Assembly: GCF_042453785.1 (NCBI RefSeq)
Contig: NC_091669.1
Span: 28,351,001-28,415,000, forward strand
Source: Malus domestica
Taxonomy: Eukaryota; Streptophyta; Magnoliopsida; Rosales; Rosaceae
Direction: 5' to 3'
DNA: 64,000 nucleotides
Position 1 is the stretch's first letter. The number at the start of each line of letters is the position of its first letter. A model generated the notes under the pieces. That model was not told where the DNA came from and did not search any database. It saw only the letters and a program-made list of their open reading frames with translations. Shown here piece after piece: positions 3,130 through 49,398 of the stretch. A program made the translations under genes and the position numbers.

Positions 3130-5253
3130 CGACCCATTGATCGTGGAAGCTCACATAGCCAACTTTGAAGTATAACAAAGCCTGGTAGACACGGGGGGTT
3201 CGGTCAATATCATGTTTGCTGAAGCTTTCAGGGCACTTAATGTAGCTGAACACTTGCTCGACCGCTCAATTTCCCCTCTGATAAGCTTCTCCGGTGATAT
3301 CGTGCAACCTTTAGGGAGCATACACTTACCTTTCACCATTGGTACAGGCCCTTACACAACTACCATTACCACTAACTTCCTGGTGGTTGATTGCCCAACG
3401 GCAAACAATGTCATCTTCGGACGCACAAGCATTAATGATCTCAAGGCCATGGTATCCACACATATGTTGTTGATGAAATTTCCAACCCCCTATGGCAATG
3501 GTTACATCAGAGGAGATCAACTTAGTGCACGATCATGTTACAACACTTCGGTCAAGCAACAGCACCTGCATGTGCCCAAGGAAACCCTTCTATACATGAC
3601 TAAGTCATAAAGACCAGCCCAGACGAAGCCAACTTGGATCTTCACAGTGGCAACAGTCAACCTGACGATCCTCGAGATGACTCTTTCACCCAGCAAGCAC
3701 AACCCGTTGAAGAGTTGGAGAAGGTCTTTATCTCAAAAGATTATTCGGATCACATGGTGAAGATTGGTACCACCTTATCACCACCCATTCAGTTGGCATT
3801 GATCTCTTTTTTACAAGAGAACACTGAGGTCTTCGCCTGGTCATACGAGGACATGCCAAGCATCTCTCCCGATATAATCTGTCATCGCTTAAGTATTGAC
3901 CTCAAAACTAAGCCAGTGAGACAAAAGCGCAAATCTTATGACGCTAAACGATGCGAGGCAATGAAGGCAGAAGTTGAAAAACTCAAAGGCATAGGCTTCG
4001 TCCGTGAAGTCAATTATCCAACGTGGGTAACAAATGTTGTCCTTGTTAAGAAGAATTCGACCAAGGAAAGTCTCCTGCTCCAAAAGGTCTTGTGGAGAAT
4101 ATGTGTCGATTACACCGACCTAAACAAAGGATGCCCGAAGGATAGCTTTCCTCTTCCTCTCATAGACAGACTTATAGACTCTACAGCAGGGTGTGAACTC
4201 TTGATCTTCATGGATGCTTACTCAGGATATAACCAAATCCTCATGAACCCTCTGGACCAAGAACACACAGCCTTCACTACTGACAGAGGACTATATTGCT
4301 ATAAAGTCATGCCCTTTGGCCTAAAGAATGCAGAAGTGACTTAACAGAGACTGGTCAATTCAATGTTCGCTGAATAGATTGGGAAAAGCATGGAAGTTTA
4401 TGTTGATGATATGCTAGTCAAGAGCAAACATGCTGACCAACACATCACTAACCTACTTGAAACTTTCACCATTCTGAAGAGGTATCGAATAAGGTTGAAC
4501 CCCAACAAATATGCCTTCGGCGTAGACTCTGGCAAATTCTTAGGCTTCATGATAAGCCAACAGGGCATTGAGGCTAATCCCGAGAAGATCAAAACAATCC
4601 TCGACATTAAGGAACCCGTAACTTCAAAAGATATCTAGAGCCTTACTGCAAGGTGGCAGCCTTAACTAGGTTTATCTCTAAGGCCACAGACAGATGTGCT
4701 CCTTTCTTCAAACAATTAAAGGAAGTAAGAAGACATTACATGGACTGATGAATGTGCTGAGGCATTCAAGAACCTCAAAGACTACATGAGTAAAGCCCCT
4801 TTGCTCTCCAAACCTGATGTTGGTGACACTCTTATTATCTATCTGTCGGTATCGGCTTCAGCAGTAAGTTTTGTTCTCATTCGAAAAGATGGTAATGTCG
4901 AACGGTCGGTCTACCACGCTAGCAAGGCCTTACAAGATGCAGAGACACGATACTCTAACATTGAGAAATTGGCTCTAGCATTGGTCATGTATGCTCGAAA
5001 ACTTCGCCCTTACTTCCAAGCACACTCCATTATCGTGCTTACCAATCATCCTCTTCGACAGATACTCCAAAGTCCTGACACTTCCGGGCGAATGATCAAA
5101 TGGGTGATAGCATTGGGTGAGTTTGACATCTCTTACCAACCAAAGCCAGCTGAGAAGGGCCAAGCAGTGGCAGACTTCATCGCCGACTTCACATATCCTG
5201 TTGACATTGTTTCTACGCCTAAAGAAGTGGTTTCATTGCCCTCGGAAGCTTAA
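3130..5253 (+). pseudogene. pol of the Tat-like element: protease, reverse transcriptase, RNase H
   Basis: The retropepsin active site LVDTGGSVN is at about 3181-3207 and its domain runs to 3610. RT follows from about 3880, with the DYTDLN region near 4108, FMDAYSGYNQ near 4208, MPFGLKNA near 4310 and the catalytic YVDDM at 4396-4410. RT-associated RNase H lies at 4786-5253. Stops interrupt the frame at 4342-4344, near 4375, at 4636-4638 and at 5251-5253. A patch at 4639-4780 is frameshifted. Most of it still reads in one frame, so decay came after a functional ancestor. Confidence 0.85.
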
Positions 5254-7164: not shown

Positions 7165-10100
7165 ACAATTCTCAAAAGCTTCACACACTCTTGATCAAGA
7201 CAGTGTGAAGCAAAACCAATTTATGGTGCCAACAAGAGCTTCATCAATGGAGGGCAACCACTGATGCGTAAAATCACTAAACACACAAATTAAACCCTCT
7301 TTTTATCAATTGTAGTAAAGTATGTAAATAGGGATCGTTCTAGGCCGGGGATTAGGAGGGATTGCTAAATCACTTGGAAACTGACTTGAAAACGTGAAAA
7401 CAAAGTTTAAAACACTAACTAGACTCAAAGAATGCAAAACTATACTTTAAAACACTAAAACAAACCAAAAGACTCAAAACAGCCCCTAAACACTCAAAAC
7501 TACCTTAAAAACACAATCTGGGCAATTTTGGGACTCTCACACAAACTTGGACAAATTTTGGTTTTCTAATGAACTAAAACACTTAAAAACATAATCTAAG
7601 ACAAGTTCTAATTAATATGACTCAAAGAAATAAGATGGGGTTGATTTTCGACGAAAATAATTAAATTAAGACAAGAACAAAGTAAACAAATTCTTAGACA
7701 AATTTGGGTGAATCAAAACACTCTAACACACAACCAAAACAGAAATTAAACACTTTGAAACAATAAAGTAAAAGGGGGATTTTGGTTTTAATGAATTTGA
7801 AAACAAAACAACTTTGTAAAACAAAACAGATTGTAAGTGAATTTGAATGAAACTTATGGATGGAAGATTAGCTAGGAGGTTCTTCTCCACATATGTTACA
7901 CTTGCATACAAAACGATTTCCAGTTGCTTTTCGATAAGCTATGAATACTCAATGCCCCAAATTAACCGTGAATTGCACTAATTAACCCTCAGTTTTTTCC
8001 ACAAGTTATTAGGTTGGATGATTGCATACGACAACCCAAAACATTCCCTACAAGTTCCCTACATGAATTGCATAATAGAGATACAAGCAAGAATCATTAA
8101 GTTCTATGAAAAACATAAGCATTGACGAGGCACTCGTTACTATGATTTGCATGAAACTTATGCCAAGAGTTTACTTAACGTGATTGTGACTAGCAACCTT
8201 CACTACTTGTGAATATAAGTTTATAACGATTAGGTGAAACTCCCTTATATTCTAGCGTCAAATTCATGCATGAAAATTAAGTGTGCACTCTTAACCAACA
8301 TACACAAATTAGTTTTTATATGAACGGATAAGTAAATTGAATTCACAACTTATGAATCATAACTGGATGTAATCAAATCATATTGCAAGTATGAACATAG
8401 TTTCGAATCACCCCCTAACTAAGAGGGGTTTAGTTCCTCATACTCACAAAGCAAAGATACATAAAATTAGACATTAAAATCAAAGGAAAGAAAACACCTA
8501 AAATGCTCCAACTTGGTAGCAAGTGCATCCAAGATTCCTCCTTTCCCTATGCTTGCGGCAGATTGGGTTATGGACAGATTTTGGGTAGTTTTATGATGTA
8601 GAATGGATGGGGAATGGTATGGAAGGGTTTAGGGTGAGTGTGGAGGAGTGTTTGATGGTTGGAGGGTGGTGGAGAACTAGGCAAAGAGGGTGGAAGAAGG
8701 TGGAGTGGCTGTTATGTTTTCTAGGCACTAGAATGGTGTTTTTGGGGTGTTTTGCTTCCTAGGGTGTGTATGGACGAATTTTTGTGATAAAATGATGAAT
8801 ATGGGGGATTGTCCTCTGGCCAAGGGGTGTAAACATGTATTTATAGGCCCCCAAAAACCTTAGAAAATCAGGTTAGGTTAAGGATGAAATGCATGGCAAT
8901 TTGTGTGTGTGGTGTGCAATGGTCCAAGGGTGAAAATGAAGTAATGATGCAAAGTGTGAAGGGTAAAATGGAGTGGTGTTGTAGTTAGGGAGCATGAATG
9001 ATTGTGTACATTGCATAGAGATGGAAAGGGAGGTGAAATGTGTCAACAAATGGGTCAAAGGTGCAACAACATGTGTTGCACATGGCATTGGATTCCAAAT
9101 GTGAATGATGGAGCATCAATTGGTGCATGTAATGGATGTAAATGTTGTCTAAAATCTAATGAGTGAAGGGAACAAGAGGTATCAAGAAATTGAGTGTAAT
9201 AATTAAATGAATTGAAGCATGAAATTAGAAATTATGTAGGGGACAAGAGTGATCAAGCATGGCATGGAATCCAAAAGGAATTCTATGTGGTTTGCATGGC
9301 AAGGAATGCAAGTTGGGGTGACAGATTTTTGGGCTGTTTTCTTCATCTTTTGGACCATAATTCTTCATATTCTTGGCCTCTTTAGTTCTCAAATTCGTCC
9401 ATCCACTTGGCCCATGCATTTGCTATCCATTCCAAGCCCGAAACATGCTCCAAAGGCCTCCAAAATGCATCTTCTTGCATACTTTGTCCATAAAATCTGA
9501 AAACACACGAAAATGACTTTAAACATTAAAATAACTAAGGAAACACGACATAAATGCACAAGAACAAGCCAACTAAGTCGCATAAATGTGCTCCTATCAA
9601 CCACAATTCTCAAAAGCTTCACACACTCTTGATCAAGACAGTGTGAAGCAAAACCAATTTATGGTGCCAATAAGAGCTTCATCAATGGAGGGCAACCACA
9701 ATTCTCAAAAGCTTCACACACTTTTGATCAAGACAATGTGAAGCAAAACCAATTTATGATGCCAACAAGAGCTTCATCAAATGAGTTCAACCATAACTCT
9801 CAAAAGCTTCACACACTTTTGATCAAGACAGTGTGAAGCAAAACCAATTTATGGTGCCGACAAAAGCTTCATCAATGAAGGGCAACTACAATTCTCAAAA
9901 GCTTCACACACTCTTGATCAAGACAACGTGAAGCAAAACCAGTTTATGGTGCCAACAAGAGCTTCATCAATGGAGGACAAACACAACTCTCAAACACTTA
10001 ACACACTCTTGATCAAGACAGTGTGAAGCAAAACCAATTTATGGTGCCAACAAGAGCTTCATCAATGGAGGACAAGCACAACTCTCAAAAGCTTCACACA

Positions 10101-10370
10101 CTCTTGATCAAGACAATGTGAAGCAAAATCAATTTATGGTGCCAACCAGAGCTTCATCAAAGGAGTTCAACCACAACTCTCAAAAGCTTCACACTATCTT
10201 GATCAAGATAGTATGAAGCAAAATCAATTCATGGTGCCCAACAAAGCTTCAACCTTAAAGCTTCACCTACAAAGATTCAACACAAAAGCTTCATTAATGG
10301 ATGACAACTACAAATTCTCAAAAGCTTCACACTATCTTGATCAAGATAGTGTGAAGCAAAGTCAATTCAT
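7165..10370 (+). repeat. About 95-bp tandem repeat with embedded palindrome (split by the solo LTR)
   Basis: Units of about 95-100 bp start with CTCAAAAGCTTCACAC and end with GAGCTTCATCAATGGAGG. One copy lies at 7165-7261 and about eight more at 9600-10370. Each has an inverted repeat centred on TTGATCAA flanked by CACACT and AGTGTG. In the later units it is perfect over 34 bp (10324-10357 and again 10662-10695). Translations through it are low-complexity and are not taken as genes. Confidence 0.85.
7262..9599 (-). mobile_element. Solo LTR, 2.3 kb, inserted in the tandem repeats
   Basis: On the minus strand it begins TGATAGGAGCAC and ends ACGCATCA, so its ends are TG...CA. The 5-bp duplication ACCAC lies at 7257-7261 and 9600-9604, and the interrupted 95-bp repeat resumes exactly on the far side. 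No coding frame and no internal direct copies of its ends are visible. A solo LTR left by LTR-LTR recombination fits best. A non-autonomous element with unrecognised structure is possible. Confidence 0.8.
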
Positions 10371-10379
10371 GGTACTCAA

Positions 10380-11034
10380 CAAAAGCTTCAACTCCAAAGC
10401 TTCACCTATAAAGCTTCAACTCCAAAGCTTCACCTACAAAAGCTTCAACACAAAAGCTTCACCCACAAAAGCTTCAACACAAAAGCTTGACCCACAAAAA
10501 CTTGACCTACCAAAGCTTGACCCACAAAAATTTGACCCACAAAAGCTTGACCCACAAAAGCTTGACCTACAAAAGCTTGACCCACAAAAGCTTGACCCAC
10601 AAAACTTCACCCACAAAAGCTTCACCTACAAAACTTCAACACAAAAGCTTCACCTACAAAAGCTTCACACTATCTTGATCAAGATAGTGTGAAGCAAAAT
10701 CAATTCATGGTGCCCAACAAAGCTTAACCTACAAAAGCTTCACCCACAAAAGCTTGACCCATAAAAGCTTGACCCACAAAAGCTTCACCTACAAAAGCTT
10801 GACCCACAAAAGCTTCACCTACAAAATCCTGACCCACAAAAGCTTCACCTACAAAATCCTGACCCACAAAAGCTTCACCCACAAAAGCTTAACCCACAAA
10901 AGCTTCACCTACAAAAGCTTCACACTATTTTGATCAAGATAGTGTGAAGAAAAATCAATTCATGGTGCCCAACAAAGCTTCAACCTCAAAGTTTCACCTA
11001 CAAAGCTTCAACACCAAAGCTTCACCCACAAAGC

Positions 11035-14618: not shown

Positions 14619-15133
14619 TGTTTGTACCATACTTGACCAATCCCGAAACTACTGAGCACCGATCAACATTATACCGTCAAGGACCTAGAAGAGTTTCCCC
14701 TTAACCAGGAGGCCAATCACAGCGCGACACGTGTCGACATCAGAAGCCAATCATAGTGCGACACGTGTCAACATCAAAAGCCAATCACAACACAACACAT
14801 GTCAATGTTAGAATGAAACTAGAAACTCTCTTCTATAAATAGAGATCATTCTCTCACAATATTTCTTAATGTCATTTGTATTAAATCATTCACTAGTACT
14901 TACTAAAGGAGAGTTTGAACCTATGTACCTATGTAAACCCTTCACAATTAATGAGAACTCCTCTACTCCGTGGACGTAGCCAATCTGGGTGAACCACGTA
15001 CATCTTATGTTTGCTTCCCTATCCCTATCCATTTACATACTTATCCACACTAGTGACCGAAGCAATCTAGCGAATGTCACAAACTTAACATTTTCTGTTA
15101 TACCAAAGTCCTCACTGATTTTGTGCATCAACA
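14619..15133 (+). repeat. 3' LTR of the Tat-like element
   Basis: 515 bp, TGTTTGTACC to GCATCAACA, with about 30 differences from the 5' LTR. GACTT follows at 15134-15138, matching the duplication before the 5' LTR. Confidence 0.92.
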
Positions 15134-25996: not shown

Positions 25997-27666
25997 AGTT
26001 CGTGTCAGGAATTTCCGTCGGGGATGTTTCCTGGCCGACGAGCACACAGCTCCCCTGGAGGATGGCGCCGGTTGAGGGCTGCTGTCGGGCTTCTGCTTCG
26101 CTGTCGGGCGTTGTCGGGCAAGTCTCGTCGGGCAAGTCTCGTCGGGCAAGACTCTTCGGGCAAGACTCTTCGGGCAAGGCTGAAAGAGAAGGATAGCGTT
26201 AACTTTGAGAGGTGCCTTTGTGGGGCCTTAGGTGTAGGCCTTGAGGCTCACAATCAAGGTTAACATCTAGGTGCTCAGGCGTGCCACTGCCATCTTTAGC
26301 ATGGCAGATGTAAAATGGTTGTCGTGCTTTAGTTGTATATATGTATGTATCCAAGAAACCGTGTTAGTTATAACAGGTGCCTTTGTGGGGCCTTAGGTGT
26401 AGGCCTTGAGGCTTCCCATAAATAACTAAACCAGTGCTCGAACGCATCATATTTGTTCTCGTGGTTGTAGGAGTTTTCTAACTATTATACTTTTGATTAC
26501 CCGAATCCAAGAAGTAGAATGAACCCAAATAGGTGCCTTTGTGGGGCCTTAGGTGTAGGCCTTGAGGCTTCCCATCAGAGTTCATTCTTATACTTAGACT
26601 CTTTAGATCGCCGAACGGAATGAATCCAAATGGATGCCTTTGTGGGGCCTTAGGTGTAGGCCTTGAGGCTTTCCATTAGAATCCATTCCATGCTCAAGCG
26701 TTCTATGATAATCATGACATAATAGAAAGAAAACTAGAAGGTAGGTTGATTACTTGCACCCCAAGTAACTTCGGACTTCTCGTTTATCAAGGACTATCAT
26801 GGATGGGTTAAGTCCACATAAAGTTCTTTTTTATGCCTTGAGGCCAAGGACTTTTAACTGATCAGATTTACATGCCCGAGGGCTTAGGACTTGGATCTGG
26901 TTTGAACACTGACAATATATTCAAATCGGATTCAAGTGCTGAGAAAGCTTTTTAATAGTCATGTTGCTAGAAATAACTTGCATATAACTGGAAGTATACA
27001 ACATATTGAAAAGACAAAACTAAAGCAAAGAAGGTCGGGCAAGGTTAAACCTTATCGGGTAAGGTTGCTCGTCTTGCAGGTTCCTATCTTTGTAGTTTTG
27101 TCAAAGGTCTGAAAGCTTAGAGGGGTAGAGAGAGAGAGATTACAAAAGATGAATCGATACTACAGCAAGGTTTAACAAGGTAGCAGAGCTATTACAAAGG
27201 GTTGAAGAGAGGGTTATCCCGAGAGGGATGAAGGCTGGTCCCGAAAGGGATGAAGGCTGATTACAGCTTTGTTTTGAAGGCAAATCTGGCTTTGAGCAGA
27301 GTTTGTGCTTGCATTTGTTTGTTTGATTGAGTGTCTTTAATCTTGGATTTTCTTTCTTCTTATATAGACAACTCGGCTTGGCCTTTGGTAGCAGCAGCTT
27401 TGCCCGAATGCGGTTTGAGGGTGATGACTCATCAGCTATTTTACATGTAATGCCACCATAAAGTGCTTTATGGGCTGTGTAGCTGACCAGTCTACACCAC
27501 TTGGCTTTTGGGTAGGTAAGCAAGTGGTCTTCATGAGCTGCACCAAGTCAGAAAATGCCTTTCCCTGCTTTCTGGGCTTCGACTGGGCTTCGGCTATCTC
27601 CCTTTCGGGCCTCCTTTTGGGCCAACTCCTTTCTTGAGCCCAAAGTTTCAAGTTTTGATCCAAACA
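25997..27666 (-). repeat. 3' LTR of the young Tat-like element
   Basis: 1670 bp. On the minus strand it begins TGTTTGGATCAAAACTTG and ends at 25997. It contains tandem GTCGGGCAAGACTCTTC-type 15-bp units at about 26118-26180 (one more unit than the other LTR) and the four stem-loops at 26198-26689. Confidence 0.92.
26198..26689 (-). repeat. Four stem-loops with constant core and differing stems (left LTR)
   Basis: A 37-bp core (GCCTTTGTGGGGCCTTAG through GGCCTTGAGGC) occurs four times. Each copy is flanked by its own inverted arms: GTTAAC/GTTAAC-type (26198-26264), TTAGTTAT/ATAACTAA (26363-26430), AGAATGAAC/GTTCATTCT (26516-26588) and GGAATG.../...CATTCC (26617-26689). The core also folds: GGCCT pairs with AGGCC around TAGGTGT, and GCCT with AGGC outside it. 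The arms differ from copy to copy but stay complementary. In the element's own orientation they lie toward the end of the LTR, upstream of the PBS. Confidence 0.8.
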
Positions 27667-28394: not shown

Positions 28395-31300
28395 TTACTT
28401 CGCATCTTCTTCGATATAACAATCTCTGACATCCCACAACGTAGCACAATATTTCTTTAAGAATTTAACGTTAATGGGATGTTTATGTTTGTTTCCTTCA
28501 AGGTCCGCCAGGTAGTATCCCCTTCTATCTAGGACACGACTAATAATGAAAGGACCTTCCCATGTCGGGCTCCATTTTCCAAAACCCCTGAGCTGAGCTC
28601 CTAGAAGGAGGATTGTCTTCCATACTAAATCCCCTTCCTTGAAAGATTTCATCTTCACCTTCTTGTTGTAAGCTCGGGCAACGGCTCGTTTCCCTTCTTG
28701 AATCTGGTTCAAAGCTTCAATTCGGGCGGCATCCAAGTCTTCAACTCCTTGACACATGGCTTCGACATACTCTTCGCTATGCAATCCAAATTGATTTTGA
28801 ATTCTTAAAGAACTCACATTGATTTCCACGGGGAGCACTGCATCTTGCCCGAAAGTTAAAGCATAAGGAGTTGTGCCTGTTCCTGCTCTCTTAGAAGTTC
28901 TGTATGCCCACAAAGTGTTCCCCAGATTTTCATGCCATCTTTCTGGACTATCAATCACCATTCTCTTGATAATGTTGACCAGGATCTTGTTGCTGGCTTC
29001 TGCCTGGCCATTTGATTCCGGGTAGTATGGACTGGACTGGATCATCTTTATTTTGTACTTACTTGCAAACTCCTCAACTTCTTTTGAAATAAAAGATGGT
29101 CCACGATCTGTCACAATAGTTTCAGGCACCCCATATCTGTGCAGGATCTTGGTCTCGATAAAATTCTTGACTGTGGCTGAATTTATGGATTTCACTGCTG
29201 ATACTTCCACCCACTTGGTAAAGTAATCCGTTGCCATAATTATAAAGGTATGCCCTCTGCTAGAAGCTGGATAGATTTGCCCGATGAAATCCATTGCCCA
29301 TCCTCTGAAGGGCCAAGGCTTGACCACTAGATTTAAAGGTATTGAGGGCACATGCTGGAGAGGTCCGTGCCTCTGACATTCTTCACATCCTCGGGCATAA
29401 GACTTACAATCTTTTTCCATGTCGGGCCAGAAATAACCATACCTCCTAAGCAACCATCTCATCTTCGTTCCAGCCTGATGTGCTCCACAAACTCCTTCAT
29501 GTACTTCGGCCATTACCCTCATGGATTCTTCTTAGCCCAAGCATTTCAACAGTAACCCATCTGGAGTTTTCCTTAGCAAGTTCTTCGCCCATAAGACATA
29601 CTTGGTTGCTTGCTGTCTATCCTTCTTGCTTGTAGGCGAGGAAGGATCCTTCAAATGGTGAATAATAGGTGACCTCCAATCTTCTATCTCGGCCTCTAGC
29701 ACCATTATATCTAGACTGAATCCCCTTTCTAAGATGGAAGGGAGGTTTCTTCTTTGGATCTCAACATCTACCCCATATTTCCTCTCCTGTATTGGCACTC
29801 CTGCGGCTAGTTGTGCCATCTCGTTGGCCGCTAAATTGGATTCCCTGGGAACATGATTGACCGATATCTCAGAATCCCAGAAATTCAATAATTGCGTAGC
29901 TGCCAAGTAATACCCCGCCATGGTAATATGTCTGCACTTGAACTCCCCATTTAACTGGTTTATTACCAACTCTGAATCTCCAAAGACCTATACCTCCTCT
30001 GCCCCCAGATCCATCAAGATTTCCAGACCAATAATTAAGGCCTCATACTCTGCCCGATTATTAGTATTCCCCTGGTAATCCAAGAGAAATGAATAATAAT
30101 GATAAACTCCCTGAGGGTTTACAATTACAATTCCTGCTCCTGAAGCCTTCTGAGTGTGGGATCCATCGAAATACAACTTCCAATGAGTGATCCAGAGACC
30201 AGCCACTCTTCTTATCTCTTGCTGGACCCAGTCTTCTTTGCCCGAAATATCTTTTCTCGGCGGGATCCAAATGCTAGTAACTTCTAGGCTTCCAGGGATA
30301 TTGATCACCTCACTTGAAGATTCTTGATGCTCGGTCAGGAAGTCGGCAATTGCTTGACCTTTAACTGCCCTTTGGGGTACGTACTGAAAACTGAATTCCG
30401 ATAAAGCTAGAATCCATTTCTCAATCCTTCCTGTGAGCATTGGCTTTGACAACATGTACTTTATCACATCTGTCTTGGCGATGATGTGCACGTGACAAGG
30501 TAACATGTAATGCCTTAATTTACTGGCAGTGAAATATAAAGCCAAGCATAATCTCTCTACCGGGGAATACCTTGTTTCTACCTCGGTCAGGATTCTACTG
30601 AGGTAGTACACTGCCTGCTCCTTCCCGCCCTCATTATTTTGGGCTAGCAAGCTTCCAATTGATTTTTCAGAGGCAGAGATATACAGCTTCAAGGGGTTTC
30701 CCCTTTGAGGTGGCACCAACACTGGTGGAGAAGTTAAATAGGCTTTGATGCTGTCAAAGGCTTGTTGGTGTGGTGGTGCCCATTCAAACTTCTCTTTATC
30801 TTTCAACCTTAGTAAAGGAGTCAGCGGCTGGATCTTGCCTGCTAGATTAGCAATGAATCTCCTCAAAAAGTTGATTTTGCCCAGTAACCTCTGGAGTTGC
30901 ACCTTGTTGGTAGGTGAAGGTGACTCCATTATTGCCCGAGATTTGTTCTTATCCACTTCTACACCTCTTTGATGCACCAGGAATCCCAAGAAGTTGCCTG
31001 CTCTTACTCCAAACGCACACTTCTTTGGATTCATCTTCAATTCGTGGATCCTCATCCTTGCTAATGTCTGTCTGAGATCCTCCAGATGCTGCTCTTCTGT
31101 TTTGGACTTTACCACTATGTCATCAATGTATACCTCCATGCTCTGGCCAATTAGATCATGAAAGATGGCATTCATTGCCCTCTGGTAAGTTGCACCAGCG
31201 TTCTTGAGCCCGAATGGCATGACCAGATATTCATATGCCCCCACATGACCGGGACACCTAAAAGCTGTTTTATGTATATCTTCTGGAGCCATCTTTATCT

Positions 31301-32138
31301 GATTGTAACCGGCATTCCCGTCCATAAAAGATAGGACTTTATGTTTTGCCACTGCATCTATGGATAAGTCGGCCATGGGCATGGGATACTCATCCTTTGG
31401 TGTAGCGCCGTTAATGTTTCTGTAATCCACACAACATCGTACCGCTTTTGTTACAGCTTTTAAAACGGGTACGATGTTGGCCAACCACTCCACATATTTG
31501 GCTGGTCTGATAAAGCCAGCTTTCACTAGCCTCTCAATCTCTTCTTTGACCTTTTCTTCTATCTCCTTTGACATCCTTCGTGGTGCTTGCTTGACAGGTT
31601 TATATCCTTCTTTGATGGGCATTCTATGTTCTACCAAGGTTGGATCTAACCCTGGCATCTCGGTATAATGCCAAGCAAAGCAGTCTTTGAATTCTTGCAG
31701 AAGACAAACAATCCTTGCTCGATCATCAACCCCCAATAAACCACTGATCTGTATTGGTCTCGGGTCCTCCTTTGATCCTAAATTAATAACTTCCAGAGGA
31801 TCCTGGACTTCTAGTGGTGGCTTATCCGGTTCTGTACACAAAAATTCGACCAGCTCCGGGCTCTCGAGCAAGTCGTCTGGCCCATCTAGATCATATATGC
31901 ACTCGGCCATTTGAATAGCCCCATCCAGTTCTTCACTGCAAGATTCCTCCTTGCTTTCATGCTGGCTAGTTGAAATTTCCTCATGCCATTCACGCTCTTC
32001 TCTGTCCAATAGCTCTCTTTCTTGTCTTCTTCCCTTCCCGTATACCAGCAGTCTTTTAATCAGGGATCTAACTACCATTACCTGATCTCTCTTCTTTTGT
32101 CCACTCATTGATGGTGTAGGGGATTTGGGAGGATACAA
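28395..32138 (-). pseudogene. pol of the young Tat-like element: RT, RNase H, second RNase H, integrase
   Basis: One reading frame spans RT (VKQAPRRMSKEIEEKVKEEI, CVDYRNIN, FMDGNAGYNQIKM, catalytic YIDDI near 31123) and RNase H. A second RNase H (LYFDGSHTQKASGAGI, NNRAEYEALI) and integrase follow. The integrase zinc region is C..C near 29370, and the core Asp residues lie in AMDFIGQIYP and IVTDRGPSF. Its Glu-containing SNGQAE lies near 28995. Two stops break it: TAG at 29985-29987 and TAA at 29532-29534, each a one-base C-to-T change from a Gln codon. All active-site residues inspected are present. Confidence 0.88.
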
Positions 32139-34209: not shown

Positions 34210-35865
34210 TGTTCGTGTCAGGAATTTCCGTCGGGGATGTTTCCTGGCCGACGAGCACACAGCTCCCCTGGAGGATGGCGCCGGTTGAGGGCTGCTGTCG
34301 GGCTTCTGCTTCGTTGTCGGGCGTTGTTGGGCAAGTCTCGTTGGGCAAGTCTCGTCGGGCAAGACTCTTCGGGCAAGGCTGAAAGAGAAGGATAGCGTTA
34401 ACTTTGAGATGTGCCTTTGTGGGGCCTTAGGTGTAGGCCTTAAGGCTCACAATCAAGGTTAACATCTAGGTGCTCAGGCGTGCCACTGCCATCTTTAGCA
34501 TGGCAGATGTAAAATGGTTGTCGTGCTTTAGTTGTATATATGTATGTATCCAAAAAACCGTGTTAGTTATAACAGGTGCCTTTGTGGGGCCTTAGGTGTA
34601 GGCCTTGAGGCTTCCCATAAATAACTAAACCAGTGCTCGAACGCATCATATTTGTTCTCGTGGTTGTAGGAGTTTTCTAACTATTATACTTTTGATTACC
34701 CGAATCCAAGAAGTAGAATGAACCCAAATAGGTGCCTTTGTGGGGCCTTAGGTGTAGGCCTTGAGGCTTCCCATCAGAGTTCATTCTTATACTTAGACTC
34801 TTTAGATCGCCGAACGGAATGAATCCAAATGGATGCCTTTGTGGGGCCTTAGGTGTAGGCCTTGAGGCTTTCCATTAGAATCCATTCCATGCTCAAGCGT
34901 TCTATGATAATCATGACATAATAGAAAGAAAACTAGAAGGTAGGTTGATTACTTGCACCCCAAGTAACTTCGGACTTCTCGTTTATCAAGGACTATCATG
35001 GATGGGTTAAGTCCACATAAAGTTCTTTTTTATGCCTTGAGGCCAAGGACTTTTAACTGATCAGATTTACATGCCCGAGGGCTTAGGACTTGGATCTGGT
35101 TTGAACACTGACAATATATTCAAATCGGATTCAAGTGCTGAGAAAGCTTTTTAATAGTCATGTTGCTAGAAATAACTTGCATATAACTGGAAGTATACAA
35201 CATATTGAAAAGACAAAACTAAAGCAAAGAAGGTCGGGCAAGGTTAAACCTTATCGGGTAAGGTTGCTCGTCTTGCAGGTTCCTATCTTTGTAGTTTTGT
35301 CAAAGGTCTGAAAGCTTAGAGGGGTAGAGAGAGAGAGATTACAAAAGATGAATCGATACTACAGCAAGGTTTAACAAGGTAGCAGAGCTATTACAAAGGG
35401 TTGAAGAGAGGGTTATCCCGAGAGGGATGAAGGCTGGTCCCGAAAGGGATGAAGGCTGATTACAGCTTTATTTTGAAGGCAAATCTGGCTTTGAGCAGAG
35501 TTTGTGCTTGCATTTGTTTGTTTGATTGAGTGTCTTTAATCTTGGATTTTCTTTCTTCTTATATAGACAACTCGGCTTGGCCTTTGGTAGCAGCAGCTTT
35601 GCCCGAATGCGATTTGAGGGTGATGACTCATCAGCTATTTTACATGTAATGCCACCATAAAGTGCTTTATGGGCTGTGTAGCTGACCAGTCTACACCACT
35701 TGGCTTTTGGGTAGGTAAGCAAGTGGTCTTCATGAGCTGCACCAAGTCAGAAAATGCCTTTCCCTGCTTTCTGGGCTTCGACTGGGCTTCGGCTATCTCC
35801 CTTTCGGGCCTCCTTTTGGGCCAACTCCTTTCTTGAGCCCAAAGTTTCAAGTTTTGATCCAAACA
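34210..35865 (-). repeat. 5' LTR of the young Tat-like element
   Basis: 1656 bp, nearly identical to 25997-27666. The stem-loop set recurs at 34397-34889. CAAGC follows at 35866-35870. Confidence 0.92.
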
Positions 35866-41659: not shown

Positions 41660-42060
41660 CCAAAAGCGCTTCACATACTTCATCAACGGTAACATTAAGC
41701 CCCCTCAACAAAATTCGAAATTCTGCACACCAAATATTATCAGGTACAATTAGCAATAATATAATAAAAAGGCATATAGAGATCCAGAATGTTGAAGTCA
41801 CAATAAAAAATCAAATAATGCTTTAAAGAAATGCAACATATTCATGAAAAAAATGAGAATGATTTTCTTCTTTCATTAGAATCAAATTAAAGAGATTGAA
41901 GCCAAAATTTGAAACAAAAACCAAAAAATGAAATTAAAATCGAACAAAACCCTAACCCAATTTAAGCCCCTGTTTCATACCTTAAATTGGAATTTCGAAA
42001 TTGAAAGACGAAGGCAAAACAACAAGGCGGTACAGTTAGCTGGCGTTTGTTAAAAAAAAA
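41660..42060 (-). pseudogene. Candidate gene fragment: 5' exon and short coding exon
   Basis: Minus strand: a non-coding exon-like stretch ends AATTTAAG/GTATGAAA near 41981. A later segment bounded by TTGTGCAG and GGAAG/GTAAAT (about 41726-41659) reads EFRILLRGLNVTVDEVCEAL. Splice consensus at both ends suggests a real exon. No protein family is recognised and further exons toward 41000 are not clear. The chromovirus starts at 42123 just upstream. Confidence 0.3.
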
Positions 42061-42122
42061 AAGATTTTGGAGAGATTCTTCATCGATGTAGCAGCCGGTG
42101 AATACTGATTAAGTGGGGCAGA

Positions 42123-44322
42123 TGTCACAGCCCGTCCCGGGATTTTATATTTGGGGACGTGAAATGACTGATTTACCCTTAGCGGGTATTAAGGTATGTG
42201 TGTGTGACGTTATTTGGTTTAACTTATTATAAGTTTTGGGATTAAAACTTGGTTTTGGAATTATGTGGTTAGGGAATTGGATGGATGGTGAGGATTTAGT
42301 GTGGACACCTCACACACTTCTTGTTCTCTCCCTCTTCCCGTATCACTCTGTCTCTCTCCTCCCTCACGATTCTCTCTCTCTCTCGCACCCATATCGTACG
42401 GACCTCACCCAAAACCCTCCAAAACTCAGCGGATCGAAGCTATTGAGGTAAGATTCTTCATCCATTCGTCGTCCTGAGTTGAATGGTACTAATTTTAGAT
42501 GGTGAAACCTTCGAAATAACGTGAAACCCGAACCCTCATTTTTTGTCACTGTTCATGCACACGTGAAATGTTGTGTTTCAGGGAATTCTAAGCTTATAGT
42601 GAGCTTAGTGAGGTCCCAAGGAAGCTCGGAGTGCTTCGTTTGAAGGTTTTGGACGTCGGAATCACTAGGTTCGAGTTTGGCCGGTTTTGCTTGGAATTTT
42701 CCGGTGAGATTTAGTTATTTTTTGGAGCTTAAAAGTAGTGTATCGTGATTCTACATGTTTGGGGCTTCAAATTGATATAAAATACGAAGAAAATGGTTGA
42801 GAAACGAAGGAGAACAATGAGTTTCAAGTTGGCCGGAAACCGGCCGCCGGAAAGTTCAGTCCGGCAAGCCGAGGTTAGGGATGATGCGCGTGGGGGCGCG
42901 TGTCCCCGTGCTTGTCCCGGTGCGTGGGGGCTCGTGCGGCCTCCAAAAATTTATCTAAAAATTTCTCGACGTCCGTGACGTCGAGTAGGTCGATGTGGTA
43001 TATTCATATACCCAAATTGAGCATCGTATGAGAAGTTATTTCGAATTGTTGGTCATGTGTTTAAATTAACGTTTTTATAGTTGTTTCGCATATAGGTGAC
43101 ACTTATCCGGAGGACGAGCGCATCCAGGGACGTCACGAGGGTTACGACCCATCAACTTATCAGTGAGTGGGCAGTTTTGTTTTCGTATTACCTATATACT
43201 ACTGTTTTCCCAGAAAATGCGTTTATATGAAAATATGATTTAAATTGCCATGCATGCAATTGTTGAGATATTTAAATTGATAATTGATGAGTATATATGT
43301 GAATCGACGCGGTGGACGCACAGGTGAGTCTTTACATTATTCAGACGATTTATTTTATGTGAATTACGTTGAGAGCTCATAAACTGCACCTTTGGTATTA
43401 GTGCTTATAGTATTCACCACACCGCACGCTCGCCTTAGATCCAAGTAGGTGGATGTCGTACAGACCACTAGAGGTGGTTCCGACATGCCAGTCGTACAGA
43501 CCATTAGAGGGGTTCCGACTGGTGGGTGACTTTAGATTATGTGCACAGATGATTGATGAGAGAAGCACTAGAGCGTATTATTTCACCATTTTAGTCGTAC
43601 AGACTATCATAGGTAGTTCCGACTTATGTGCAGTATAGTGCCGTACAGGTCACAGTTGGTGACTCCGGCAGGGCCGTACAGGTCACAGTTGGTGACTCCG
43701 GCTTGATGGGATATTGAGCTATAGAATCAGCCGTGCAGGACCACTGCAGGGTCTCCGGTTGATTTATTATTGCACCTAAGTTATATTGATGCATTCATAT
43801 TATATTTTGGCATGGCATGGCATATTCTTTTTGAGATGTTATGTTGATAGATGGTAAACTGACTTTTGATGATTTATGTATATATATATGTTTATATACT
43901 ATTTTTCTAGGAAAGTATACAGGTTTTACGGTGAGGGGTTAGAAACGTTTTAAATAAAATGTTTTTGGAAAATATTTGGTTTTACTGACCCACTCACCTT
44001 TGTTTTGCGCCTCTCCAGGTTCTAGTTAGCAGTTGGTGGCTCACGAGGTCTTTTTCGGCATTCTGACAGAAGTACTGCATGTAGGACTCACCTGCGGGTG
44101 TTGTACTTTAATTATGGTCCTACTTGACTGCACTTAGACCTACGCTCTGAATTCGTGTGTTTTACTTTATAACTCTCTCTTTGATGCTAGTAGGTTATGC
44201 TGCTAGTGGTTGGTTTAAATTCCTTCATATTTCTGTTATATCTTGCTTCCGTGTCGCACTTTTGGCTACGTCTCACTCACGTGACGGCCAGCACGCCTTG
44301 ATTCTAGGATCGGGGTGTGTCA
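42123..44322 (+). repeat. 5' LTR of the chromovirus
   Basis: About 2200 bp, TG...CA. It includes pyrimidine-rich CTCTCTCT sequence near 42330-42385, a GC-rich part at 42830-42920, and the hairpin series at 43453-43763. Confidence 0.88.
43453..43763 (+). repeat. Six hairpins with constant motif and covarying stems
   Basis: Six units share the order outer stem, GTACAG (GTGCAG in the last), inner stem and loop, then TCC, outer stem. Outer pairs are ATGTCG/CGACAT (43453-43486), CCAGTCG/CGACTGG (43488-43522), AGTCG/CGACT (43593-43624), TGCCG/CGGCA (43639-43670), GCCG/CGGC (43672-43703) and ATCAGCCG/CGGTTGAT (43726-43763). Inner pairs also differ, for example ACCAC/GTGGT, ACTATC/GGTAGT, GTCAC/GTGAC and GACC/GGTC. 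The fourth and fifth are a direct 33-bp duplication; the others are diverged yet still pair. Confidence 0.85.
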
Positions 44323-44325
44323 GTT

Positions 44326-44337
44326 TGGTATCAGAGC
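44326..44337 (+). other. Primer binding site, initiator tRNA-Met type
   Basis: TGGTATCAGAGC, complementary to the 3' end of plant initiator tRNA-Met, lies 3 bases after the LTR. Confidence 0.9.
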
Positions 44338-44401
44338 CTAGGTTGCAGTCCTGTATAATTGTTAATGCTCTAATGATCTTTTGATGTTTTTTGTCAGAAT
44401 T

Positions 44402-47400
44402 ATGCCACCTCGTAGGGAACGTAGGGAATCCCGCCGTACTTCTGAACCTAATTTCCCTGATATTACTCAGTTAGGGGAAGCAATGGCCCAGGCTTTACAG
44501 AATGCAATTCGTCCTCCTCCCCCTCCTCAGAGGACACCCCTGGAGACCATGTACAATTTGAAATTGGATCGTTTTATGGGTAATGAAGGTCACGAGGGGG
44601 CAGAGAAATGGCTAGACCATATTGAGAAGACGTTTCAGGTGATGCAAAGTCAGGGGAACTTTGCTGCTGATAGGTGGGTTGAGACCACTACCTGGTTTTT
44701 GGGCCGTGAGCTAACAGCTTGGTGGGAAAATCAGACTAGGTACATGTCACCTGAGACGGCTGCTGACTGGAAAGTATTCAAAGAGAACTTTATGAAGAGA
44801 TTTATCCCTCCAGAATACATTGATCGTAAAAAGCAAGAGCTTACTCGATTGAAACAGAAGAATATGTCAGCTCATGAGTACTACAGAAAGTTTACTGATT
44901 TGTCTCGTTATGACCCTGATACAGCTGGTAATCAGGTGGAGATGCTTCGACGTTTCAAGTTAGGAACTAAGAGAAAGTGGCGGACTTTTTCCAGTGCACT
45001 TCCCTGCGCCGATTATCATGAGTTTTTCGAGATTTTGGTTAGGATGGAAGACTCCGATAATCTTCCCAGTGAGAGTGAGGATGACGAGGACAAGAATGAT
45101 GGTCAAAAGAAGGATGATAGAGGTAAAGGTATCTCTATTCCGGGACCTCGCAAGACGCAGAATTTTAAGAAGAGTGGGGCGAGTTCGAGTTCTTCTAGTG
45201 GTGGATATAGTATTACTGGCCCGAGGAGAGGTGGTGGAAGATTTTCTAGTGGACCCAGGTTTCAGAGGCAGAGGGATTCTGGTGGTGCTGGTGGTTCTGG
45301 CGCTCCGTGGTGCCATCGTTGTAATTTTCGTCATCATGGTGAGTGCAGGAGAGGTGGTGGTGCTTGTTATACTTGTGGGCAAACGGGACATCGGGCTTCT
45401 CACTGTCCCCAGGGTCAACAGAGACCTCAGCAGACCACTATGCCACCTCCAGCGCCGATTCAGCAGAGTTTTGGACCAGGCAGTTATGGCCAGTCGGGTC
45501 GTGGTGGTGCCTACCACTACCAGGGGGATGCTGCTCCGTATGCTTCCGAACCTTATCAGTATCCCCAGGAGCCTTATTCTCAGACAGGGTATTCTCAGGA
45601 CTTTGGGGGTTATTCTTCTTATTCATCCATGCCAGCTGGTGGATCTCAGTGGCATCAAGGAGGTCAGCCCCGTCAGGGGGAAGTTGCTACTGGTGGTGCA
45701 GGATCATCTAGGCAACCTAGTCAGTCAGGCCAGGGACGTACTCCCTAGGGGCGAGGTAATCAAGGCAGTAGAGGTCGTGGTGGACGACAGCAAGCTCAGG
45801 GGCGTGTTAATCACATCTCATTTCAAGATGCTCAGAACCATCCCGATTTGATCATGGGTACGTTAAATGTTCTTGGTCATTTTGCTAGAGTTTTAATTGA
45901 TTGTGGTGCTACGCATTCTGTGATTTCTCATACGTTTGCTCAAATGACTTAACCTCACCCGTCGCCTCTAGGATTTGATTTAGAGTTTGCCATGCCTAGA
46001 GGAGATAAATGTTATATTGATAGTGTGTATCTTGGGTGTCCAGTGATGGTAGAGGGCGTAGTTATGCTAGCTGATCTTATTCTATTAGATATTGTGGATT
46101 TTGATGTGATTCTTAGAGCAGATTGGTTGCATTATAATCGTGTCCATATTGATTGTTATGGGAAATCAGTTACTTTTTATCGTCCTGGACTACCCGAGGT
46201 TACTTTTGTGGGTGAAAGAAGTGGGGTGAGACATGGTGTTATTTCTGCCATAAGAGCAAGGAAGTTATTATCGAAGGGTTGCCAAGGATATTTAGCACAT
46301 GTGGTGTTAAATGATGTTGTTCCTACCAGTATAGGAGAAGTTGGTGTGGTCAGACATTATCCTGATGTATTTCCTGATGATTTGCCGGGGTTGCCGCCAG
46401 ACAGAGATGTGGAATTCTCTATCGATTTGCTTCCAGGTACTGACCCTATATCTCTAACTCCTTATAGAATGTCTCCTGCTGAGTTGAGAAAATTGAAAGT
46501 TCAGTTGCAAGAATTACTTGATAAAGGTTTCATTCAACCTAGTTCGTCACCTTGGGGAGCTCCGGTATTATTTGTGAGGAAAAAAGATGGAACTCTGAGA
46601 TTGTGTATTGATTATAGGCAATTGAACCGGGTAACGATTAAAAACCGTTATCCATTGCCTCGCATCGATGATTTGTTTGACCAGCTGAAAGGTGCGTGTG
46701 TATTCTCTAATATTGACTTGAGATCTGGTTATTATCAGTTGAAGATTAAAGATGAAGATGTACCTAAGACGGTTTTCCGAACCCGTTACGGACATTATGA
46801 ATTTTTAGTTATGCCATTTGGGTTGACCAATGCACCTGCAGCTTTCATGAGGTTGATGAATGAGGTATTCCAGCAATATCTTGATAAATTTGTCATTGTT
46901 TTTATTGATGATATTCTGGTATACTCTAAATCTAAAGCAGATCATATCCGGCACCTTAACTTGGTATTAAAGAAATTGAGGGAACATCAGTTGTATGTCA
47001 AGTTCAGTAAATGTCAGTTTTGGTTTACTGAAGTGGCATTTTTGGGGCATGTTGTATCCGCTCAAGGAATTCAAGTAGACCCTCAAAAGATATCAGCAGT
47101 GGAGAACTGAGAGCAACCTCGAACCGTCACTGAGGTATGAAGTTTTCTTGGTTTGGCAAGTTATTATCGACGGCTTGTTCAGGATTTTTCTATGATTGCT
47201 TTGCCGTTAACGAAGTTGACCAGGAAGGATGTTAAATTTGAGTGGGATGAGAATTGTGAGCGGAGTTTCGAGCAATTGAAATATTGCCTCACTCATGCTC
47301 CAGTATTGGTACTTCCTGATGATAGCGGTAATTTTGAGATTTACTGTGATGCTTCCTTGAATGGTTTGGGATGCGTTTTGATGCAGCATAATAGAGTGAT

Positions 47401-49249
47401 TGCTTATGCTTCTCGACAGTTGAAAAATCATGAAAGGAATTATCCTACTCACGATCTTGAATTGGCAGCCATTGTCTTTGCTTTGAAGATTTGGAGGCAT
47501 TATCTATATGGTGAGAAGTGTAAGATCTTCATTGATCACAAGAGTCTTCAGTATCTATTTACTCAACATGATCTTAATCTTCGTCAGCAAAGGTGGATGG
47601 AATTGCTGAGTGATTATGACTGCACTATTGAGTATCATCCGGGTCGTGCTAATGTGGTAGCTGATGCACTGAGTAGGAAACCTCAAGGTAGACTCAATGC
47701 CTTATATGCTTGTCGTGTTCCCCTTCTTGCTGAACTGAGGGCAACTAGAGTAAAGTTGGAGTTGGAAGATGGAAGCCAAGCTTTTCTTGCTAGTTTTCAA
47801 GTCAGGCCAATTTTGGTGGATCGTATACTCGAAGCTCAGGTGGTGGATGAAGAAATTCAAGAAATGGTTCAATTAAGAAATGAAGGGAAAAAGAAAGACC
47901 TCAAGATTCGAGAATCAGATGGCATGCTTATGCAGGAAAACAGAATGTATGTTCCGAATAATGAGGAATTAAAGAAGGAAATTTTGGATGAAGCGCATTG
48001 TTCAGCTTATGCGATGCACCCAGGAGGAACAAAAATGTACCATACCATTCGACCATTTTATTATTGGCCGAGTATGAAAAGGGAAATTGCTGAGTATGTG
48101 AGTAGATGTATTATTTGCCAGCAAGTCAAAGCAGAAAGAAAGAAGCCTTTTGGGCGAATGCAGCCACTTCCAGTTCCCCAGTGGAAATGGGAAAATATAA
48201 CCATGGATTTCGTGTATAAGCTTCCTCGTACACGAAATGGATTTGATGGTATTTGGATGATTGTGGATCAACTTACCAAGTCAGCGCACTTCATTCCAGT
48301 GAGGGAAAAGTATCCTCTGAATAAATTGGCTAAGTTGTTCATTACGAAGATTGTGAAGTATCATGGAGTTCCAGTGAATATTATTTCTGATCGAGACCCA
48401 AGATTTACTTCTAAATTTTGGGTAGTTTTTCAGGAAGCTCTTGGTACGAATTTGCTATATAGTACTGCTTATCATCCTCAAACTGATGGGCAATCAAAGA
48501 GGACGATCCAGACGTTGGAGGATATGCTGAGATCTTCAGTGTTACAATTTGGTGATTCCTGGCATGATCGTCTGGACTTGATGGAATTTGCCTACAATAA
48601 TAGTTTTCACTCGAGCATTGGTATGTCACCATTTGAGGCACTTTATGGTAGGGCGTGTCGTACACCATTGTGTTGGTCTGAGGTTGGTGAAAGAGTGTTA
48701 GAAGGCCCAGAGATTGTGGATGAGACTACTCAAAATATTCAGGTGATTAAGTCTAATCTGAAAGCAGCCCAGGATCAACAGAAGAGTTTAGCTGATCGAC
48801 ATGCCACTGATCGAGTATATAATGTGGGCGATTGGGTATTTTTGAAATTGTCACCTTGGAGAGGTGTGGTACGATTTGGAAAAAGAGGAAAGCTAAATCC
48901 GAGATACATTGGACCTTATGTGATCACTGAAAGAATTTGTGAAGTTGCCTACCGGTTGGAGTTGCCTCCGGAGTTATCTAAGGTTCATAATGTGTTCCAC
49001 GTCTCTATGCTTCGACATTATATTTCTGATCCTTCTCATGTGATCCATTCTCAACCGCTAGAGATTAATCCGGATTTGACATATGATGAGGAACCAGTCA
49101 CTATCTTGGATTGGAAAGATAAGGTTCTAAGGAACAAGACGGTGAGCTTGGTGAAGGTATTGTGGAGGAACCATTCGGCAGAAGAAGCTACCTCGGAAAC
49201 AGAAGATCGAATGAGAGAGATATACCCAAGGTTGTTCTATGGGTATTAA
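44402..49249 (+). pseudogene. gag-pol polyprotein of the chromovirus, four stop codons
   Basis: One frame of about 1615 codons. Gag (MPPRRERRESRR start, capsid around 44560-45050) has a zinc knuckle, CYTCGQTGHRASHC, at about 45364. Protease has LIDCGATHSVIS near 45895. RT has LCIDYRQLN near 46600 and catalytic FIDDIL near 46900. RNase H has [11 protein letters not shown] near 47337 and [10 protein letters not shown] near 47658. Integrase has its HHCC region near 48000-48125 and a DDE core with MDFVYKLP near 48204, ISDRDPRF near 48385 and TDGQSKR near 48482. The SKR variant where NER/SER is usual may affect the Glu. The chromodomain runs to FYGY. Stops are TAG 45746, TAA 45950, TGA 47108 and TGA 47138. 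Confidence 0.93.
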
Positions 49250-49304: not shown

Positions 49305-49398
49305 TGTCATAGCCCGTCCCGGGATTTTATATTTGGGGACGTGAAATGACGGATTTACCCTTAACGGGTATTAAGGTATGTGTGTGTGACGTTATTTG
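49305..49398 (+). repeat. Truncated 3' LTR of the chromovirus
   Basis: 94 bp matching 42123-42216 with a few substitutions. Similarity ends abruptly after GACGTTATTTG. Confidence 0.85.

Follow-up and report, generated by a model that had tools for sequence, protein, structure and literature searches.

Arrays of small hairpins with covarying stems and a fixed asymmetric loop in LTR retrotransposons of Malus domestica: an apparent cis-acting RNA structure

The window, meaning the whole 64,000-nucleotide stretch of Malus domestica DNA analysed here, corresponds to C9:28351001-28415000 in a 651-Mb genome of 19 contigs. A Ty3-type LTR retrotransposon lies on its plus strand. The 5' LTR of this element is 2.2 kb long (42123..44322), runs from TGTCACAGCCCG to GGGGTGTGTCA, and aligns end to end with the LTRs of two other loci (L019 and L027). 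It is followed by TGGTATCAGAGC at 44326..44337, which we take to be the primer binding site, and by a gag ORF (44396..45748) in which Retrotrans_gag and a zinc knuckle were recognized by Pfam. The pol region as it stands is in two pieces, a protease/RT ORF (45992-47110) and an RNase H/integrase ORF (47153-49249). The element was assigned to the Ty3 type on the presence of an LTR, a primer binding site, gag and the order protease-RT-RNase H-integrase. Only the start of the 3' LTR, 49305..49398, is recognizable. Because its likeness to the 5' LTR stops after approximately 94 nt, a 3' copy of the hairpin array described below was not found at this element. The initial annotation had called the element a chromovirus. 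Pfam detected no chromodomain (E ≤ 10) in the 103 C-terminal residues of the integrase ORF, where the one weak PDB match (E 0.081) was to 2m2l, a putative uncharacterized protein. The label was therefore not confirmed, and chromovirus identity and a Tekay placement are retained here as assumptions.

Two further pairs of direct repeats were noted in the window. Repeats at 25998-27666 and 34211-35865 are 98.7% identical, lie 8.2 kb apart and enclose minus-strand matches of RT and integrase type (28443-31709); they probably mark a second, young LTR element. Repeats at 357-871 and 14619-15133 are 93.8% identical and surround an RT match (3784-4599), with large internal tandem repeats between them at 9598-10251 (95-nt unit) and 10379-10923. 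These probably belong to a third LTR-type element.

Six hairpin units of approximately 36 nt each were located on the plus strand of the 5' LTR at 43452-43762. The layout of a unit is CG-UACAG-(inner stem)-loop-(inner stem)-UC-CG: the outer stem ends in a C-G and a G-C pair, 5' UACAG then stands opposite 3' UC, and an inner stem of approximately 5 bp with its loop closes the unit. Hairpin 1 (43452..43487) has the inner stem ACCAC/GTGGT and an isolated fold of −13.7 kcal/mol. Hairpin 2 (43488..43522) combines a weak inner stem, ACC/GGT (3-4 bp), with a long outer stem. The inner stem of hairpin 3 (43591..43626) is ACTATC/GGTAGT and that of hairpin 4 (43637..43672) is GTCAC/GTGAC, with GCCG/CGGC as outer stem. 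Hairpin 5 (43670..43705) is a tandem duplicate of hairpin 4, which it overlaps by 3 nt; for this reason the 36-position model of the unit lists five hairpins. Since the two arose by a 33-bp tandem duplication and have identical hairpins, they were not treated as independent. Hairpin 6 (43727..43762) carries the variant GTGCAG and the inner stem GACC/GGTC, and was found by the model at E 2.6e-4. The six units that had been reported are thus real. A constant GTACAG in all six is not: it is exact in five, two of which (units 4 and 5) are the same hairpin, and the sixth reads GTGCAG.

Isolated units of the window adopted the expected layout in ViennaRNA. For five of these six folds, the final G of UACAG formed a pair with the U of UC, which left UACA facing C. 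At least six of the seven core pairs were present in the isolated fold of 94 of 116 rows, comprising 115 model hits plus unit 5. The frame CGTACAG-N10..20-TCCG was matched five times in the window, always within the array, against 0.06 matches expected. Folding of the whole 331-nt array was weak and only slightly better than that of shuffled sequence (plus strand: z −1.58, 5/100 shuffles as good; minus strand: z −0.93, 21/100), and several hairpins compete with other pairings in silico. The signal resides in the units and in their covariation.

Across the 651-Mb genome, 3238 matches were counted to the constant frame around a 15-nt insert, whereas the reversed pattern matched 79 times. A looser pattern, GTACAG-N5..25-TCC, was discarded as too common to use (36744 matches; reversed control, 71616). 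Two samples of loci were drawn. The first comprised 264 kb, namely the window and 20 loci (L009-L028) that were picked because their matches looked like hairpins, and was searched with the model at a cut-off of E ≤ 0.01. The second comprised 20 loci (L031-L050), hand-picked for variety from the listed frame matches, all on contig C1. It yielded 81 hairpins. Exact frame hits compared with model hits (30 against 81 in L031-L050; 25 against 110 in L009-L028) put the genome total on the order of ten thousand; this estimate is rough, as the loci had been chosen for the motif. Arrays contain 1-12 hairpins. The largest hold 12 (L042, 244-1042, minus strand) and 10 (L047, 441-1392, plus strand). Most hairpins at L042 are spaced approximately 65 nt apart, so whole units with their spacer were probably duplicated in tandem there. 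Beyond this genome, a scan of viral contigs gave no stretches, and two further scans gave one match in viral contigs (L030) and one in a bacterial contig (L029), with one unit each by the model; both were taken as chance matches. The hairpins are known from one genome, the scans beyond it covering viral contigs and one genome-contig scan.

Covariation was measured on several sets of units. Among 63 distinct GTACAG..TCC units in a first count, 32 had all seven tested pairs, against a mean of 12.0 and a maximum of 19 in 500 shuffles. A set of 54 distinct units (A1) came from the window and from 18 of the 20 eye-picked loci, with the constant letters as the basis of selection. In this set, 82.7% of cells were paired (71.6% shuffled), cells changed on both sides numbered 114 (52.4 shuffled), and the covariation score was 0.451, against 0.248 for shuffles and at most 0.147 when partners were slid by 1-3 columns. 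The model built from A1 was used to find and align two further sets: A2, 101 distinct model hits, scored 0.463 (0.255 shuffled), and A3, 82 distinct rows of the second sample including the stray L029 and L030, scored 0.447 (0.253). A1 and A2 lean towards hairpins through the choice of the first-sample loci. The number of pairs changed on both sides was no higher than in shuffles, being reached by 217 of 500 for A1, 115 for A2 and 67 for A3; nor was the number of pair types (109, 178 and 48, respectively). In 80 distinct listed frame units, chosen with structure ignored, inner pairs 1-4 were Watson-Crick in 76, 76, 72 and 73. Both A1 and the listed frame units fix CGTACAG and TCC, the constancy of which in these sets is by construction.

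A double-mutant cycle was counted over the whole genome, free of any hand-picking of loci, for the two outermost pairs of the inner stem in otherwise free 15-nt inserts. The paired classes AC..GT and GT..AC occurred 2289 and 1571 times, respectively. Neither mispaired class, AC..AC or GT..GT, occurred at all (0 against 3860 paired); independence would predict approximately 547 and 530, as scaled to 3238 from the first 100 listed units, all on contig C1. These counts include many related copies, and units shared by descent are not independent events. As related copies inflate shuffle tests, 90 distinct gap-free units were also placed on a tree, along which every column was simulated 400 times. 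The top three of 561 column pairs were inner pairs 1, 2 and 3 (E 0.003, 0.010 and 0.092), of which two pass E 0.05. Inner pair 4 (rank six) and the outer pair that is third from the loop (rank eight) were not significant, and no outer-stem pair passed E 0.05 among the 90 units. In A1, the outermost three pairs were unpaired in 21, 32 and 24 of the 54 units. The inner stem is well supported and covariation of the outer stem is weaker. Compensatory change in both stems, and selection for folding instead of sequence, had been proposed from the window alone. Across genomic copies, inner-stem covariation exceeds the shuffles, two inner-stem pairs pass the tree-aware null and the whole-genome counts agree, so that both proposals are supported for the inner stem; compensatory change in the outer stem was not significant in the tree-aware null. 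An RNA structure of the units is very likely.

The fold had been suggested to be either RNA or a DNA cruciform. All 115 first-sample model hits (E ≤ 0.01, 264 kb) are in the sense orientation of their LTR. This was established by script for 68 (none opposite), through the strand of the LTR alignment for 26 and by a downstream LTR-end motif for 21. The last group lies at L011, L024 and L028, the first L024 cluster being linked by a direct repeat. No mixed-strand locus was found among the 20 loci of the second sample. Strand was also examined through mismatches, as G.U pairs form only in sense RNA and an A.C marks a pair that forms only in antisense RNA. In the 80 distinct units chosen regardless of structure, G.U outnumbered A.C by 30 to 14 (p 0.023), a modest excess that is support rather than proof, the units being related. 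Further counts came from model-aligned sets, which lean to the plus strand: 56:18 in A2 when counting starts at column 4 and proceeds inward (the inner stem contributing 36:2), 43:16 in the 78 new units of the second sample with L029 and L030 dropped, and 74 of 102 units folding better on the plus strand, with 27 on the minus. Only the 30:14 count is free of this lean. Sense RNA is favoured over a DNA cruciform because of the sense-only orientation, the constant asymmetric loop and the modest G.U excess.

Of the other explanations, the one that survives best, although we consider it unlikely, is that the units act as DNA, either as cruciforms or as palindromic binding sites in the LTR, e.g. 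for a transcription factor. LTRs are known to hold promoters, and CGTAC is the core of plant SBP-box (SPL) sites; the GTAC core of such sites is present in five of the six window units, the sixth having GTGC. GTACAG is nearly constant (in A1 by construction), the last loop G was kept in 72 of the 78 new model-found units, and the inner stems are near-palindromic as DNA. A double-stranded site would, however, leave the compensatory stem changes and the TCC on the far side unexplained, and the sense-only orientation (115/115), the asymmetry of the loop and the 30 to 14 excess of G.U over A.C tell against it.

The sequences flanking the array resemble splice sites. On the plus strand of the window, one perfect donor-like site, CAG/GTGAGT (43321..43329; nine of nine consensus letters), and one acceptor-like site, a pyrimidine-rich block (43998..44019) ending in CAG/G (44016-44019), enclose the array and would delimit a candidate leader intron at 43324..44018. 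The acceptor-like site is the sole one in the LTR, on either strand, that matches the rule applied; the minus strand of the window has two donor-like sites with nine of nine letters (43992 and 44086) and no acceptor-like site under the same rule. A second conserved donor-like sequence, GTGAGTGGG, lies at 43163..43171 and is complementary to 43989-43997. There, at 43983..43997, TACTGAC, presumably branch-like by its consensus, is followed by CCCACTCAC. LTRs only approximately 66-76% alike where aligned still keep the array and the flanking blocks. The upstream GTGAGT was kept in 18 of 18 aligned rows (ATGAGT at L023 in the wider cluster comparison), and the downstream block, CCCACTCA followed by a TTTTGCGCCCCTCCAGGTT-like stretch, is conserved across the aligned LTRs. 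Upstream of and overlapping GTGAGT, a block at 43107-43166 reads by eye in one frame as PEDERIQGRHEGYDPSTYQ and then a stop; much of it is kept in the aligned LTRs, and it is possibly a small conserved ORF or exon within the LTR.

A further donor-like CAGGTRAGT was often found 130-190 nt before the first hairpin. Of 33 clusters counted by hand, 22 had [AC]AGGTRAGT within 700 nt upstream and 26 had the acceptor-like block (≤4 mismatches) downstream; the minus-strand cluster of L009, where the LTR alignment ends beside the array, was scored as a miss in both. In the second sample, CAGGTRAGT was upstream in 15 of 20 loci (1/20 on the other strand) and the acceptor-like block (≤3 mismatches) downstream in 16 of 20 (1/20). 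GTGAGTGGG was not strand-specific (9/20 against 7/20), the other block, CCCACTCAC, being its complement. All bracket counts concern sequences shared by descent and not independent events. An integrated copy lacking the intron was sought at one junction with up to two mismatches, and none was matched; this fits exclusion of spliced RNA and equally fits no splicing. Judged from the sequence, most arrays may lie in a leader intron that marks unspliced RNA, and GTGAGTGGG and CCCACTCAC, which flank the array as conserved complementary sequences, could pair to close off approximately 830 nt of RNA as one domain, or could hide the donor-like site.

The same bracket would also suit a role in splicing only, in which the hairpins bring donor and acceptor of the leader intron together or hide donors, with no packaging or export protein involved. 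The position of the array between donor-like and acceptor-like sites and the complementarity of GTGAGTGGG to CCCACTCAC near the acceptor are as it would predict. Spacing, however, needs no constant internal loop in every unit, and we rate this account as improbable, a little behind a DNA-level element. Next in rank, and also improbable, is an origin by mutation, in which reverse transcription, through template switching or quasipalindrome correction, would copy one arm to the other and produce covariation without selection. The copies do arise via reverse transcription and the arrays do grow by tandem duplication (33-nt and ~65-nt periods). Such correction should, however, also erase the mismatched loop, yet UACAG/UC persists across LTRs that are approximately 66-76% alike, and there are no mispaired double classes against 3860 paired. 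Drift of a functionless tandem repeat amplified in LTRs would accommodate a copy number varying from 1 to 12, but is strongly disfavoured by the double-mutant counts, the covariation, the lack of mispaired classes and the orientation, and we give it almost no credence.

The reading that we prefer, and to which we give somewhat better than even chances, is that the hairpins act as sense RNA and offer a protein one fixed asymmetric loop, the likeliest job being to mark or carry unspliced RNA. The units would be kept by selection as sense-strand RNA hairpins in a group of Ty3-type LTR retrotransposons. Each would offer the same asymmetric internal loop (5' UACAG / 3' UC; probably UACA opposite C, with the G.U pair above) between two stems, the letters of which would be largely free provided that pairing holds. 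Several copies in a row would give a single protein, be it the zinc-knuckle Gag of the element or an RNA-binding protein of the host, a multivalent platform to bind. The array would thereby mark or carry the unspliced, full-length RNA for packaging or nuclear export. An unspliced-RNA role is considered likeliest because most arrays stand between conserved donor-like and acceptor-like sequences; if this bracket is a real intron, spliced RNA would lack the array and full-length RNA would carry it. Transcription, splicing, the binding protein and the function are what we infer here, and packaging or export in particular is the leading guess but a minority one. More ambitiously, and tentatively, the arrays may represent a new family of repeated RNA signals in plant LTR retrotransposons, with up to 12 UACAG/UC hairpins of freely covarying stems placed in a leader intron. 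Packaging or export would then be confined to unspliced genomic RNA, the plant equivalent of retroviral packaging logic. We think this fuller version possible but doubtful.

No Rfam family, hammerhead included, matched 42000-44500 at E ≤ 1. Open-access literature on hairpins, packaging signals, splicing and conserved structure in plant LTRs gave no description of the array among the matches listed, most subscription papers being outside its scope. Both results are consistent with the initial annotation, which knew of no described element with such a layout. The array looks like a cis-acting RNA structure of LTR elements that has so far not been described. Little is known about how plant LTR retrotransposons select the genomic RNA that is packaged or exported, and the thousands of copies with a fixed loop and covarying stems are a ready set of natural binding probes. 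The splice-like sites that bracket them provide a testable rule for which RNA is chosen.

Among known systems, the retroviral packaging signal psi sits downstream of the major splice donor. Psi is a structured RNA bound by Gag and, as in many retroviruses it lies beyond the donor, is restricted to unspliced RNA; the apple array would resemble it in this respect. Unlike psi, the array lies inside the LTR and consists of as many as 12 copies of one small hairpin, and its binding by Gag is putative. Related literature includes a paper on MMTV packaging (PMC8096270) for retroviral packaging signals and one on Cer1 (PMC10309623) for signals exporting unspliced RNA. Constitutive transport elements are a further parallel, in that a repeated internal-loop motif with variable stems would suit an exporter of intron-containing RNA. 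Plants use TREX rather than the TAP/NXF1 receptor, according to passages of PMC12786077 that also describe direct studies of RNA export of plant LTR elements as not done. Fairly little was known in 2013 of packaged RNA outside BARE, as stated in a section of PMC3735527. Retrozymes, as outlined in part of PMC4918200, carry hammerhead ribozymes and are likewise structured RNAs of plant retroelements; the array differs in having no hammerhead or other Rfam match. In an HMM study of LTRs, residual conservation in long retroviral R regions was tied to stem-loops; for its chromoviral model, zebrafish LTRs were the main source, and the passages concerned describe no repeated hairpin of the array's kind (PMC3601003). 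The closest plant parallels for the bracket are Ogre, CRR and BARE1 (PMC3735527, in the passages on splicing) and EVADE (PMC12786077, likewise in part), where splicing separates pools of element RNA. The same passages of PMC3735527 put the splicing of Ogre between ORFs, describe loss of rt from CRR and place a small intron in the gag of BARE1. Unlike in Ogre, CRR and BARE1 as presented there, the candidate intron of the apple elements lies in the LTR and holds the hairpins, and its putative splicing would separate RNAs with the array from RNAs without it.
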